Shown: piece by piece, positions 4,554 through 61,963 of the stretch
Position numbering within the stretch: the stretch's first letter is position 1
Layout: each line of letters begins with the position of its first letter
Assembly: GCA_020846975.1 (NCBI GenBank)
Contig: JADLCX010000068.1
Coordinates: 1-64,000, forward strand
Source: Phycisphaerales bacterium
GTDB lineage: Bacteria > Planctomycetota > Phycisphaerae > Phycisphaerales > UBA1924
Direction: 5' to 3'
Length of the DNA stretch: 64,000 bases
Made by a program: the position numbers and the translations under genes
Notes under the pieces: model-generated
The model's input: the letters and a program-made list of their open reading frames with translations, nothing else
Told to the model about the DNA's origin: nothing
The model's database searches: none

Positions 4554-5405
4554 ATGCGGGAGCGAGCGACACCCATGCGGGCACTGTGGATGACGACCGC
4601 GCTTGTATCGACCGTCTGTGCTCTCCCGCGGGCGGTGGGAGCCGATCTGGCGTCGTGCCCCCCGGTTCGCGACAACACGTTGTACGAGTCGATCGACGGA
4701 ACGTTGAGCAACGGCGCCGGCCCGCACCTGTTTGCCGGAGTCACGTCCGAGGGGCTGATTCGAGAGGCCCTCATGTCTTTCAACCTCGCGGCGATCCCGG
4801 CGGGCTCCACCGTCACATCGGCAACACTCGTGGTCACGGTGTCACGCGCGAACGGAGCGCCGATCGGGACCCTGCACCGAGTGCTGTCGCCGTGGGGCGA
4901 GGGGGCATCGGTCGCGAGCGAGCCCGGCGGCGAGGGCGCGCAGGCCGCCGCCGGAGATGCGACCTGGACGCACGCGTTCTGGCCCGACGTTCCGTGGAAC
5001 ACCGTCGGAGGGGATGTCTTCCTCGATCCTTCTTCGCTCGCCGCGCTCCCGCCCGCGGGGGTCGTGACGTGGCCTTCGACCAGTGCGTTGGTCGCCGATG
5101 TGCAAGGCTGGCTCGAACAGCCCGGCGCCAACTTTGGCTGGATGGTTGTGGGCTTCGGCGGGGCCGCGAGGTTCTCGTCGAGAGAATCCTCTCTCGCCGG
5201 ATCGAGGCCCGCGCTCGTCGTCGAATACACCCCGCCCTGCGCGGCCGACTTCAACGGGTCGGGCGCCGTCAGCGTGCAGGACATCTTCGACTTTCTGACC
5301 GCCTACTTCGGCGGCGATCTCGCGGCCGACTTCAACGCCTCGGGCGGTGTGAGCGTGCAGGACATCCTTGATTTTCTGGCCGCGTACTTCTCGCCCTGCG
5401 CGTGA
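4554..5405 (+). CDS. Secreted protein with DNRLRE-like domain and C-terminal dockerin-type EF-hand pair
   Basis: This is a 283-residue exported protein. The N-terminus MRERATPMRALWMTTALVS leads into a hydrophobic stretch and an A-x-A-like cleavage region near residue 30. The middle (about 45-215) looks like a DNRLRE-type beta-sandwich: a Y/F-N-L repeat, a SATL-V-V strand, and a W-x-V-T-x-x-V region. The last 55 residues hold two near-identical Ca-binding repeats, ADFNGSGAVSVQDIFDFLTA and ADFNASGGVSVQDILDFLAA, the dockerin-like module common at planctomycete C-termini. It may anchor the protein to the cell surface; no cohesin was seen here. ATG 4554 has AGGGAG upstream; ATG 4575 is an alternative. 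Confidence 0.75.
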   Translation: MRERATPMRALWMTTALVSTVCALPRAVGADLASCPPVRDNTLYESIDGTLSNGAGPHLFAGVTSEGLIREALMSFNLAAIPAGSTVTSATLVVTVSRANGAPIGTLHRVLSPWGEGASVASEPGGEGAQAAAGDATWTHAFWPDVPWNTVGGDVFLDPSSLAALPPAGVVTWPSTSALVADVQGWLEQPGANFGWMVVGFGGAARFSSRESSLAGSRPALVVEYTPPCAADFNGSGAVSVQDIFDFLTAYFGGDLAADFNASGGVSVQDILDFLAAYFSPCA

Positions 5406-34925: not shown

Positions 34926-36500
34926 GTGTACCAATCACTCCTGACCCGCCGCTACCTCACCTCCAAGCTCATGCCGCTGCTCGCGGCGCTGGCGGTGATG
35001 CTCTGTTCGGCCATGGTGCTCATCACCTGGTCGATCATGGGCGGCTTTCTCGTCAAGTTCCTCGATGTCGGCCGCAACACCGACGGCGATGTCATCATCT
35101 CCTGGCCGACCGCCGGCTTTGCGCACTACGAAGAACTCATCACCATGCTCGAAAAGGACCCGATGGTGCAGGCCGCGGCCCCTTGCATCGAGTCGTGGGG
35201 CATGCTTGCGCTTCCCGATGATCGTCTGGTCGTCGTCAAGATTCGCGGCATCGACGGGCGCTACGCGAGCGTGTCGGGCTTCCGCGACTCGCTGTGGTGG
35301 CGGCCGATCGACGAGCCTCTGCCCAAGGACGCCGAGCGGCTCGACCCCCGGCTGACCAACCATCGGCTCTTCGAGCAGACGCTCGCCGACGGCCTTGCGC
35401 TCAAGAAGAAAGACCCCGAGACCGGTCGGCTGGAGCCCGCGGTGATTCTCGGAATCGAGGCCGCGGGGTTCAGCCGAAGGATGGAGGCGGGGTACTACGA
35501 GATCCCACCCACGAGCATCCTCGCGCGGCCGAGCAAGGGCGACATGGAGTCGGGCCGTCGGCTCAGCCCGTTCATCTGCGATCACTCGGTGGTGATCAAC
35601 GTCCTGCCGCTCACGAGCGGCGGCCGCGACATCAAGGTCGCTTCGCGCAAGCTGCCGGTTGCCAACGAGTTCCGGACGGGCGTCTTCGAGGCAGACCAGA
35701 AATCGGTGCTCATGGACCTCGGCGAACTGCAGCGGATGCTCAAGCTCGACCGCGGCGAAGCGCTCGGGGTGCGGGGCTCCAACCCGTACGAACTGGGAGC
35801 AGAGAACGGGCGCGAGCAAGCGGCCCGGCGCGAAGTCGTCGGCGCCGCGGAGGCCCGCGTCACCAACATCTTCGTGAAGGGCAAGGGCGGGGCGGAGGGG
35901 GACATCAACGCGCTGCGGGACCGCTGCGAGTCGGTCTACCGCCAGTTCGAGGCCAGGTTCAAGGGGCAGGTGCCGACGCCGGACGCGATGGAGCGAGCCA
36001 AGGGCATCGGCACGTGGGAGCAGAACTACGCGATGTTCATCGGCGCGGTCAAGAAGGAGATCGCCATGGTGCTCGGGCTGCTCATGTTCATCTCATTCGT
36101 AGCCGTGTTCCTCGTGCTGGCGATCTTCTGGGCGATGGTGAGCGAAAAGACCAAGGATGTCGGCATCCTGCGGGCCATCGGCGCCAGCCGCGCGGGGATC
36201 GCCTGGCTCTGGCTGCGCTACGGCATGGCCCTGGGCGTGGTCGGCACGATCCTCGGCCTGGCCGCCTCGTTCCTGATCGTTCGGAACATCAACCCCATCC
36301 ACGAGTGGCTCGGCCGGGCATTCGGCGTGGTCATCTGGGACCCGCGCGTCTACTACTTCACCGAACTTCCGAACCAGGTCGAGACGCACAAGGCCGCGAT
36401 CGTCGCCGCCGGCGGCCTGGTGTTCAGCGTGCTCGGCGCGCTCATCCCCGCGCTGCGTGCGGCGACCTACGACCCCGTCAAGTCCCTCCGCTTCGAGTAG
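34926..36500 (+). CDS. FtsX/LolC-type ABC transporter permease
   Basis: This 524-residue permease has the MacB/LolC plan: a first helix near residues 17-37 (LAALAVMLCSAMVLITWSIM), a large periplasmic domain of about 340 residues, then three helices in the C-terminal 150 residues. The last helices contain GFxxVFLVLAIFWAMV-like and LGVVGTILGLAASFLIV sequences of FtsX domains. Together with the downstream ATPase it resembles the LolCDE system, which releases lipoproteins from the inner membrane, or a MacB-like exporter. The start is GTG 34926, with TACCCT 6 nt upstream. The partner ATPase starts 153 nt downstream. Confidence 0.8.
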   Translation: MYQSLLTRRYLTSKLMPLLAALAVMLCSAMVLITWSIMGGFLVKFLDVGRNTDGDVIISWPTAGFAHYEELITMLEKDPMVQAAAPCIESWGMLALPDDRLVVVKIRGIDGRYASVSGFRDSLWWRPIDEPLPKDAERLDPRLTNHRLFEQTLADGLALKKKDPETGRLEPAVILGIEAAGFSRRMEAGYYEIPPTSILARPSKGDMESGRRLSPFICDHSVVINVLPLTSGGRDIKVASRKLPVANEFRTGVFEADQKSVLMDLGELQRMLKLDRGEALGVRGSNPYELGAENGREQAARREVVGAAEARVTNIFVKGKGGAEGDINALRDRCESVYRQFEARFKGQVPTPDAMERAKGIGTWEQNYAMFIGAVKKEIAMVLGLLMFISFVAVFLVLAIFWAMVSEKTKDVGILRAIGASRAGIAWLWLRYGMALGVVGTILGLAASFLIVRNINPIHEWLGRAFGVVIWDPRVYYFTELPNQVETHKAAIVAAGGLVFSVLGALIPALRAATYDPVKSLRFE

Positions 36501-36515
36501 TTCAGTATCATCAAT

Positions 36516-36634
36516 CAAGACCTAGGCGGAGGGGACAGGAGGGTCCCGCAGAGGACCGGAGTCGATTCCCTTCTTTCAACGCATCCCCTCTTGACCTCTG
36601 CGTGATCCTCTTTTTCCGTGCGCCTCCGTCTTGC
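36516..36634. repeat. Imperfect inverted-repeat element between the LolC-like and LolD-like genes
   Basis: Left arm AAGACCTAGGCGGAGG...CGCAGAGGACC (36518-36556) is complementary to the right arm GACCTCTGCG...GCGCCTCCGTCTT (36592-36634), with mismatches. It fills most of the 152-bp spacer (36501-36652). It is similar in composition to the element at 53331-53566. Confidence 0.6.
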
Positions 36635-36652
36635 ATCCGGCAGTGCGAGTCC

Positions 36653-37411
36653 ATGCCCGTCCCTACCCTCACCAACCCCGTGCGCGTTCAATCCCCCTCC
36701 ACCAGTCCCGCGACCGACCCGATCCTCTCGGCACGCAACGTCTTCAAGACCTACCGCCTTGACCGTGTCGAGGTCCCGGTGCTCAAGGGCGCTTCGATCG
36801 AAGTCCCCGCCGGCGCTTGGGTCGCCATTCTCGGCGCCTCCGGCTCAGGCAAGAGCACGCTGATGCATCTTCTCGGGGGTCTCGATCGGCCCGACCGTGA
36901 CAAGGGCGAGGTGCACTTCGACGGCAGGATGCTCAGTTCGATGTCCGCTTCCGAACTCGACCGCTACCGCAACGTCTCGGTCGGCTTTGTCTTCCAGTTC
37001 TACCACCTGCTCCCCGAACTCAGTGTCATCGAGAACGCCCTCATCCCGGCGATGGTGCTGCACGGGCGGCTCGGCTTCTCCCGCCGTCGCGCGGAGCTGA
37101 CCGCCCATGCCGACGCGCTCCTCAAGTCGTTCGGACTCGGGCACCGCCTCACTCACCGTCCCGCGCAACTCTCCGGCGGCGAGCGCCAGCGCGTGGCGAT
37201 CGCCCGCGCGCTGGTCAACGACCCGCCCGTCCTGCTCGCCGATGAACCCACCGGCAACCTCGATCGGCACACCGGCGAGGCGATACTCGATCTGATCACG
37301 CGGCATCGTGCCGAGACCGGCCGCACGCTGGTCATGGTCACGCACGATCCAGAGGTCGCGGGCCGGGCCGACCGCATCGTGCGGCTTGAAGACGGGCGCG
37401 TGGCGGGCTGA
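36653..37411 (+). CDS. lolD: LolD-like ABC transporter ATP-binding protein
   Basis: This 252-residue ATPase has Walker A GASGSGKST near residue 66, the Q-loop in VFQFYHLLPEL (about 117), the ABC signature LSGGERQRVAIARAL near 172, Walker B VLLADEPTGNLD (about 195-206) and the H-loop THDPEV. The ADEPTGNLD and FQFYHLLP forms are typical of LolD/MacB/FtsE. It has a slightly long N-terminus of about 28 residues. It pairs with the upstream permease; only one permease is present, so LolCDE, LolF-type or MacB-type complexes remain possible. No LolA or LolB was identified in the window. Confidence 0.85.
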   Translation: MPVPTLTNPVRVQSPSTSPATDPILSARNVFKTYRLDRVEVPVLKGASIEVPAGAWVAILGASGSGKSTLMHLLGGLDRPDRDKGEVHFDGRMLSSMSASELDRYRNVSVGFVFQFYHLLPELSVIENALIPAMVLHGRLGFSRRRAELTAHADALLKSFGLGHRLTHRPAQLSGGERQRVAIARALVNDPPVLLADEPTGNLDRHTGEAILDLITRHRAETGRTLVMVTHDPEVAGRADRIVRLEDGRVAG

Positions 37412-53048: not shown

Positions 53049-53300
53049 GGCCGGGCCATCGGGCCGACCGTCCGGCCGGGTCGGACGACCTCACCATCGG
53101 CCCATCCGACCGGCCGCTTGAGTCGGGCGGCCATCCGGATGCGTTGTCCGATCGTCCGGACAAGTTGTGTGAGCGTCCGGACAAGTTGTGTGAGCGTCCG
53201 GATAAGTTGTCCGAGCGCGCGGATAAGTTGGATGGCCGTCCGGAGAAGTCGCACGGTCGGACGGATGGGTTGTCCGATCGGCCGATCCGGTCGGCGGGTG
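53049..53300. repeat. Degenerate 21-bp tandem array upstream of recQ
   Basis: The core 53154-53216 has three near-identical units based on GTCCGGACAAGTTG, and similar units of exactly 21 bp continue on both sides with decreasing similarity (about 12 units total). It occupies the gap 52937-53330 upstream of recQ, and all six frames show heptad-like translations because 21 nt is 7 codons. No gene is likely here. Confidence 0.75.
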
Positions 53301-53330
53301 GTGCGGGCGGTCCACGGAGGGGAAGAGCCT

Positions 53331-53566
53331 CACGCGGAGGCGCGGGGGCGCAGAGGAAGAACGAAATCGAACTCAGAGGGATGGGAGAGAGGGGAGGATA
53401 TGGGAGGGGGACTTTGTCATTGGCCTTTCCCGCGCCTTCGCGCCTCCGCGTAAGGCCCGCGTTGAGGGCCAAGGGGAAACGCGGAGGGCACGGAGAAGAT
53501 GCAGAGAGCACAGAGAAAAAGCCTTGTCTTGAAAGACACGCCTCTGGTTCTTCTCTGTGCTCTCTG
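53331..53566. repeat. Composite inverted-repeat element
   Basis: Two nested hairpins: ACGCGGAGGCGCG (53332-53344) pairs with CGCGCCT-like arm 53431-53452, and CAGAGAGCACAGAGAA (53502-53517) pairs perfectly with TTCTCTGTGCTCTCTG (53551-53566) around a further TGTCTT-GA-AAGACA hairpin. A direct CTCTGTG motif repeats four more times to about 53590. Together with the 21-bp array it fills the 52937-53611 gap. Confidence 0.7.
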
Positions 53567-53611
53567 TGCGACCTCTGTGTTCTCTGTGTTCCTGCCTCGT
53601 GCCTTGTGTGA

Positions 53612-60843: not shown

Positions 60844-60992
60844 CCCGTGCGGGGTTCGCAGTTGCTCTTTGGTGTGGGTCGGGGCACGTGCGCGGAATAA
60901 CACGCTGCGGCCCTTGGGCCCGGATCCAGTGAGGTCGAAGGTGATCGTTCGTGCCGCGGCATCCGCATCTAAGCCGCTTCGGCGGAACAGCG

Positions 60993-61149
60993 TTAGCCGG
61001 GGGCGAAAGCCCCCGGTGAGCGTCGGTCTTGTTCAGAGAGCCCTGAAAGGGCGGCACAAGATAGTGCGCGCTTGATGAACCGCTGTGTCGCCCCGTTGGG
61101 GCTCACGGATCAAATCGCACGCCAACCGGGGGCTCACGCCCCCGGCTAC
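60993..61149. repeat. Inverted-repeat element with four small hairpins
   Basis: TTAGCCGGGGGC-GAAA-GCCCCCGG (60993-61016) is mirrored by CCGGGGGC-TCAC-GCCCCCGGCTA (61126-61148). Between them lie GCCC-TGAAA-GGGC (61040-61052) and GCCCC-GTT-GGGGC (61090-61102). The interval 60610-61215 otherwise shows nothing but this and the 21-bp array. Confidence 0.65.
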
Positions 61150-61202
61150 GGCTGTTGGGCCGCTGGCGCGGCTCCGAGCCAAGCACACGCGCGCCCGCGC
61201 GG

Positions 61203-61215: not shown

Positions 61216-61839
61216 ATGAGCGTCGCGCCCGCCCCCACCCCCACCCCCCGCAAGCGAAGACGATGGCGCTGCTGGGGACGGCGGAGAAGCTGGGCGCTCC
61301 GCTGGGGCGGGCTCGCGGTGTGCGTGGCGGTGGCGGGGGTGTGGGGGGTGAGTGAGTGGCGGCAGTTCGCAGCATCCAACGAACACAGTTACTTGAGCCA
61401 CTCGCAGGAAAAGCGCCGTGGCGGAGTCAGCGCGGCGTGCTGGCGCGGAACCGTGGCCTTGAGCTGGTCTGATGGCGTGTGGGATCGTCGCACGCGCAAG
61501 CCCGAGCCGACTTCGGAACACCCCAGACACAGCCGGTGGACTTGGACAACAACGCGGACGCCCAACACGCTCATCTTCGGTCGAGACTGGTGGTTTCACT
61601 TCGAGAGCTACGCGAGCACCTCGCTACGGATTCGGATGGCTCGCTTTCCCCTCTGGTTCCCCCTGCTCCTCGCCGCCGCGCCCACCGCCCTCGCCTGGCG
61701 CTCCGAGCTCCGACGCCGCCGACGCGAGCGCGGGGGGAAGTGTGCGAAGTGCGGGTATGACCTTGCGGGGCTGGCGAGGGGGGGTGGGGCCGCGTGCCCG
61801 GAGTGCGGGGCGAAGCAAGCAGAGGAGCCGGGGAGCTGA
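61216..61839 (+). CDS. Hypothetical membrane protein with C-terminal zinc ribbon
   Basis: This 207-residue protein starts with a Lys/Arg-rich stretch and a membrane helix near residues 36-53 (GLAVCVAVAGVWGV), then a large Trp/Ser-rich soluble region with no clear homology, a second helix (FPLWFPLLLAAAPTALAW) and a C-terminal zinc ribbon CAKCGYDLAGLARGGGAACP with CG. The last is the same type as at 27640. ATG 61216 is preceded by TACGAT (7 nt). The ORF's 255-aa version starts inside the repeat element. Confidence 0.6.
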   Translation: MSVAPAPTPTPRKRRRWRCWGRRRSWALRWGGLAVCVAVAGVWGVSEWRQFAASNEHSYLSHSQEKRRGGVSAACWRGTVALSWSDGVWDRRTRKPEPTSEHPRHSRWTWTTTRTPNTLIFGRDWWFHFESYASTSLRIRMARFPLWFPLLLAAAPTALAWRSELRRRRRERGGKCAKCGYDLAGLARGGGAACPECGAKQAEEPGS

Positions 61840-61895
61840 GGAGCAGAGGAGAGATAAGACATTCGCGCTCCCCCTCTCCCCTGCTCCTCAGCTCC
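61832..61895. repeat. Inverted repeat with 15-bp perfect arms
   Basis: GGAGCTGAGGAGCAG (61832-61846) is complementary to CTGCTCCTCAGCTCC (61881-61895). The left arm overlaps the last codons and stop of the 61216 gene; the right half lies in a C/T-rich tract leading to the M3 peptidase gene. Confidence 0.7.
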
Positions 61896-61963
61896 TCTGC
61901 TCCCCCTCTCCCCCGCTCCTCCGCTCCTCAGCCGCCCTCCCCCCGCCCCTACCCTCCCCCCGC

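Follow-up and report, generated by a model that had tools for sequence, protein, structure and literature searches.

A palindrome in a lolC-lolD-like spacer of a Phycisphaerales bacterium is probably a diverged copy of a dispersed element whose long form encloses a GxxExxY gene

The spacer between a LolC/E-like permease gene and a LolD-like ATPase gene of a Phycisphaerales bacterium (36501–36652, 152 bp) is taken up for the most part by a palindrome of 118 bp (36516–36633). This palindrome has no ORF and is probably a diverged copy of an element that is dispersed through the genome and palindromic, the long form of which encloses a GxxExxY gene between arms of the same RCRCRGAG type. Coordinates refer to the window, the whole stretch of 64,000 nucleotides that was analysed.

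Palindromic alignment placed a purine-rich left arm (36516–36554, + strand, 72 % purine) opposite a pyrimidine-rich right arm (36595–36633, + strand), so that the purine-rich arm comes first, with 30 Watson–Crick pairs, plus G–T pairs, over 39 columns. The score of 33 exceeded that of 100 dinucleotide shuffles (14.3 ± 2.6, maximum 26). Eight palindromes in the window, this one among them, scored at least 30, whereas the best of 490 shuffled stretches scored 29. An inverted-repeat search lengthened the arms to 51 nt at 73 %; the 40 nt loop (36555–36594) contains no ORF and pairs weakly in its inner part. The imperfect palindrome reported at this site by the first-pass annotation is therefore real and its left end stands, but the right end, given as 36634 (119 bp), was corrected by one base. 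The long hairpin proposed for its transcript also agreed with the computed fold of 36500–36650 (−60.7 kcal/mol, z −3.3, with none of 200 shuffles as low). Covariation among copies, suggested as a check, proved weak, with two-sided changes in 3 of 34 pairs; it was rejected as proof of RNA function, and selection of the hairpin as RNA is thus not demonstrated. Only chance-level matches to Rfam were obtained, none at the gathering threshold.

The element lies between two protein genes, outside rRNA genes. The permease gene (34926–36500, + strand; FtsX PF02687, 3.8e-14; best match TIGR02212, lolCE, 3.3e-42) ends 15 nt upstream of the palindrome, and the right arm stops 19 nt before the start codon of the ATPase gene (36653–37411, + strand; PF00005, 2.2e-33; TIGR02211, LolD, 3.3e-74). 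Both proteins matched the Lol families clearly, yet fell under the curated cut-offs. As the copy directly follows the permease stop codon, both reading frames stay intact. No target-site duplication was seen on inspection of this locus.

BLAST of the palindrome against its own genome gave no convincing copy, whereas the query 53320–53605 revealed dozens of partial copies, with a consensus of an arm (GGAACACAGAGGGCACGGAGAAGTCACAGAGAGCACAGAGAAAA), a loop of about 25 nt and the complement of the arm. A covariance model (R1) was built from eight copies in the genome, the spacer palindrome being left out. R1 matched 36516–36633, precisely the ends of the palindrome (model positions 1–130, 19.9 bits, E 0.0029 in 77 kb, a modest value), and within the left arm the words CGGAG, ACAGG and GCAGAG align with the family. 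The same model matched 53322–53461 (22.8 bits, E 0.0005), 53469–53599 (124.5 bits; a typical copy belonging to the building set), both also found as inverted repeats, and the purine-first palindrome 61815–61912 (33.3 bits, E 7e-7; palindrome score 45), which bears out the likeness to an element at 53331 that had been noticed earlier. On the whole genome R1 identified about 40 loci, and it is these, together with the exact match at the spacer, that argue for a copy. Against this, the spacer palindrome is diverged: it has no BLAST-like copy, and its 19.9 bits were too weak for listing at E ≤ 1 in the whole-genome search. The similarity of its arms to GxxExxY arms was reached by 8 of 300 composition-preserving shuffles for the left arm and by 11 to 32 of 300 for the right, and these shuffles back its family membership only moderately.

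In 852 kb of the genome there were 11 purine-first palindromes (purine content of the left arm 68 % or more), but not one in the reverse orientation; a profile HMM of the arm gave 19 weak matches there, not including the spacer palindrome, compared with none in the shuffle. Taken alone, the words GCGGAGG and CGCAGAGG were not above chance frequency; the signal is one of arrangement. The region 53062–53605 (about 540 bp, with two palindromes and GTCCGGACAAGTTGT repeats) has a 91 % duplicate on contig C22 (approximately 4700–5250), where one palindrome is present in two copies. A strong palindrome of a different type (60980–61162, score 59, with CCCTGAAAGGGCG-like sub-hairpins) resembles repeats near a Y1 transposase gene, also on C22.

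The same joint was compared in relatives, using the 3' ends of permease genes from 131 family loci, 120 of which had LolD downstream. The distance from the permease stop codon to LolD residue 24 had a median of 39 nt and was at most 104 nt in 106 of the 120 loci, compared with 221 nt in the window, of which 69 nt are LolD's own start. In most relatives the two genes abut or overlap, which bears out the earlier statement that such pairs are normally tightly coupled. Because the joint is mostly short, the palindrome represents extra DNA in an otherwise tight operon joint. The view of it as an inserted inverted-repeat element was thus supported: further copies exist in the genome and the orthologous spacers are mostly short, whereas the first-pass annotation would have taken a lack of copies, together with orthologous spacers of similar sequence without pairing, as a refutation.

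Nevertheless, a few of these spacers were filled by palindromes, which also argues for a copy. One with the same words (R1, 38 bits) occurs in G009, from another genus, and two others, with CACAAAGA words in G056 and GACGCAGAG words in G044, occur in another family of the order. By a rough estimate of our own, in which 344 strand-wise R1 matches correspond to about 190 elements spread over some 3,000 spacers per genome, about 0.06 palindromes would be expected at one named spacer outside the window's genome, compared with the three seen, two of which, in G044 and G056, come from one family and are perhaps not independent. In that family G048 carries GCTGGAT heptamers in the spacer. Genus g91 shows single arms, built of GGCAATAGG or GGGATCA words, that begin at most a few bases 3' of the stop codon. 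The spacer of G147 (genus g29) holds a GGCAATGGG palindrome, whilst that of G148 measures 3 bases there. At locus L236 of G052, which belongs to the family of G044 and G056, GAAATCC heptamer arms enclose a gene for an IVP four-helix bundle within the lolC-lolD spacer. GxxExxY genes were also seen directly upstream of a LolC-like permease gene (G044:C35:37601-37945 and G045:C30:33326-33673).

The identity of the element, with the arms of GxxExxY-type elements, was unforeseen by the first-pass annotation. On contig C36 of the same genome, two arms of 52 nt composed of family words (score 76) lie about 550 bases apart around a GxxExxY ORF (PF13366, E 4e-36). In relatives, 23 of 27 GxxExxY loci and 21 of 28 IVP (PF05635) loci had inverted arms with a score of 30 or more in their flanks, compared with 1 of 55 further-out (shifted) flanks, none of 47 permease flanks and none of 55 shuffled flanks. 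Across more than 12 phyla, from Planctomycetota, Bacteroidota, Chloroflexota, Acidobacteria and Cyanobacteria to Methanosarcinales, such arms occurred at 52 of 70 usable GxxExxY loci and at none of 53 controls. The arm word RCRCRGAG was shared among GxxExxY loci, whereas IVP loci mostly had other words, often heptamers. A mismatched-pair control was unsuitable for the flank test, as GxxExxY arms have words in common. R1 found matches in 30 of 61 genomes, the window's own included, and at least three matches were present in 19 of the 28 genomes with a strong GxxExxY gene but in only 2 of the 33 without one (Fisher p 3e-7, not corrected for phylogeny). The link to GxxExxY is drawn from the C36 element, the two sets of flanks and this association.

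Long and short forms could be compared at one site. It is a spacer 3' of one gene in genus g40, which contains arms with GxxExxY in G047, pieces of the same in G059 and only the end of the right arm in G039. In G043 and G055 this spacer is arm-poor and measures 78 to 104 bases. The stop codon formed the left boundary in every genome compared. This series and the contrast within g29 are in keeping with a mobile-element copy in the window, although both concern other copies, in genera other than the window's. The g40 forms would fit decay of long elements and insertion alike. At L396:2001-2345 a GxxExxY frame has an in-frame stop between well-kept arms (score 68), which suggests that GxxExxY ORFs may decay as arms persist. 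The IVP class shows long and short forms as well: the window's genome contains an IVP gene between GGTGACAAGGTGAC arms (C60:71254-71568) and an ORF-less palindrome with GGTGACAAGGTGAC words (C58:347552-347742).

In 29 GxxExxY sequences from many phyla, D63, E73, K75 and Q87 were invariant. The structure was predicted with confidence (pLDDT 95.7), and the best PDB fold matches of the model, none at E below 0.001, were SSO0001, a Cas4 protein, and lambda-type exonucleases. On the basis of these matches to the predicted model, a nuclease fold of the PD-(D/E)XK type is likely. A PDB sequence search with GxxExxY gave no match, and PADLOC and PHROGs matched neither GxxExxY nor the IVP protein. In the open literature searched, GxxExxY (PF13366/TIGR04256) was almost absent and no account of it with inverted arms was found; the novelty of the link is provisional, since the search was limited to open papers.

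Short forms may relate to the GxxExxY long form roughly as MITEs or REPs relate to a transposase gene, the element being mobile, or once mobile, with the involvement of GxxExxY. Its position right after a stop codon would avoid gene damage. The spacer transcript should form a long hairpin, as computed, and by analogy with rRNA intervening sequences this stem is a plausible RNase III substrate; cleavage could separate the lolC-like and lolD-like messages, with loss of translational coupling and a possible effect on expression. The first-pass annotation had proposed that such a hairpin might alter the ratio of the two subunits. Otherwise the element may be selfish or nearly neutral. We offer a wider generalization tentatively, as a possibility that we do not rate as probable. 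GxxExxY genes between RCRCRGAG arms, and IVP genes whose arms have different words, would represent widespread, unnamed, transposase-free mobile palindromes. A nuclease resembling Cas4 and lambda exonuclease would recognize its own arms, folded as a hairpin or cruciform, as its substrate and would mobilize ORF-less copies too, with a preference for sites just 3' of stop codons, the lolC-lolD spacer being a recurrent target.

The alternative that survives best, although we consider it unlikely, is a non-mobile product similar to STRRs, in which purine-rich words expand by slippage and inverse copies arise by fold-back replication, recurrently and locally, so that enclosed genes are captured passengers. 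Such an origin would suit arms made of degenerate word repeats whose words vary from genome to genome, even where the spacer is the same, the partnerless single arms common in the lolC-lolD spacer, and, through strand-specific copying, the exclusive purine-first orientation; Xanthomonas has convergent repeats of heptamers that are comparable (PMC4692102). It does not account for the word type tracking the enclosed protein across phyla, or for the presence of GxxExxY predicting the number of palindromes.

A conserved regulatory RNA setting the subunit ratio at the lolC-lolD joint is much less probable again: spacer palindromes do occur in several genera and in four genomes of one other family, but the spacer is too short in most relatives, the words vary among genomes, covariation is weak and some 40 other loci carry the same palindromes. 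The idea that the spacer holds a transcription terminator or attenuator was rejected; a hairpin directly 3' of a stop codon would suit it, but 36400–36700 contains no terminator-like site, the loop is 40 nt and no T run follows the stem. A REP or REPIN moved by a RAYT transposase is largely refuted, for although the palindrome is dispersed and intergenic in a genome with Y1 transposase genes, none of 7 Y1_Tnp loci was flanked by the family, no GTAG/CGTC tag was seen at the base of the element by inspection, and its length is 118 bp rather than 20–40 bp.

If the preferred reading, a diverged copy of a GxxExxY-type element, is correct, it would explain the origin of a class of intergenic palindromes recurring across bacterial phyla, supply a candidate for their partner protein, and provide a setting for the GxxExxY family. 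A connection of ordinary intergenic palindromes with the intervening sequences of rRNA genes would become testable, and the widened lolC-lolD joint would be explained without a dedicated regulator.

Among known systems, the intervening sequences of rRNA genes in Coxiella and Leptospira are complementary at their ends, between which an S23p/IVP ORF may lie (PMC4990558). The element described here likewise has complementary ends that form a long stem with a small ORF possible between them, occurs sporadically and is tolerated owing to its location, and IVP genes themselves lie between arms of repeated words in other genomes of this comparison. Intervening sequences, however, lie in 16S or 23S rRNA genes, whereas the present copy is ORF-less, lies in a protein operon and belongs to a family associated with GxxExxY and not with IVP; cleavage by RNase III has been shown for the former and is assumed for the latter. 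The convergent G-rich heptamers of Xanthomonas (GGGAATC) and of Nostoc (PMC4692102) are similar in being intergenic purine-rich words, often in convergent inverted pairs, located close 3' of stop codons between co-directional genes, but the words found here are not G-quadruplex heptamers, and no protein partner was described for those repeats. With REP/RAYT and TIRYT elements (REPtrons and TIRtrons; PMC3733652) the family shares a gene flanked by inverted repeats and many gene-less palindromic copies; it differs in having a protein of PD-(D/E)XK fold, as predicted, instead of a Y1 tyrosine transposase and in lacking the GTAG/CGTC tag, and it does not border the RAYT genes of the window's genome. 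Finally, the TAACTGA repeats of Beggiatoaceae (PMC4679880), for which a translational role has been proposed, are also intergenic repeats of a short word near start codons, but consist of a different word and are nearly all direct, not palindromic.
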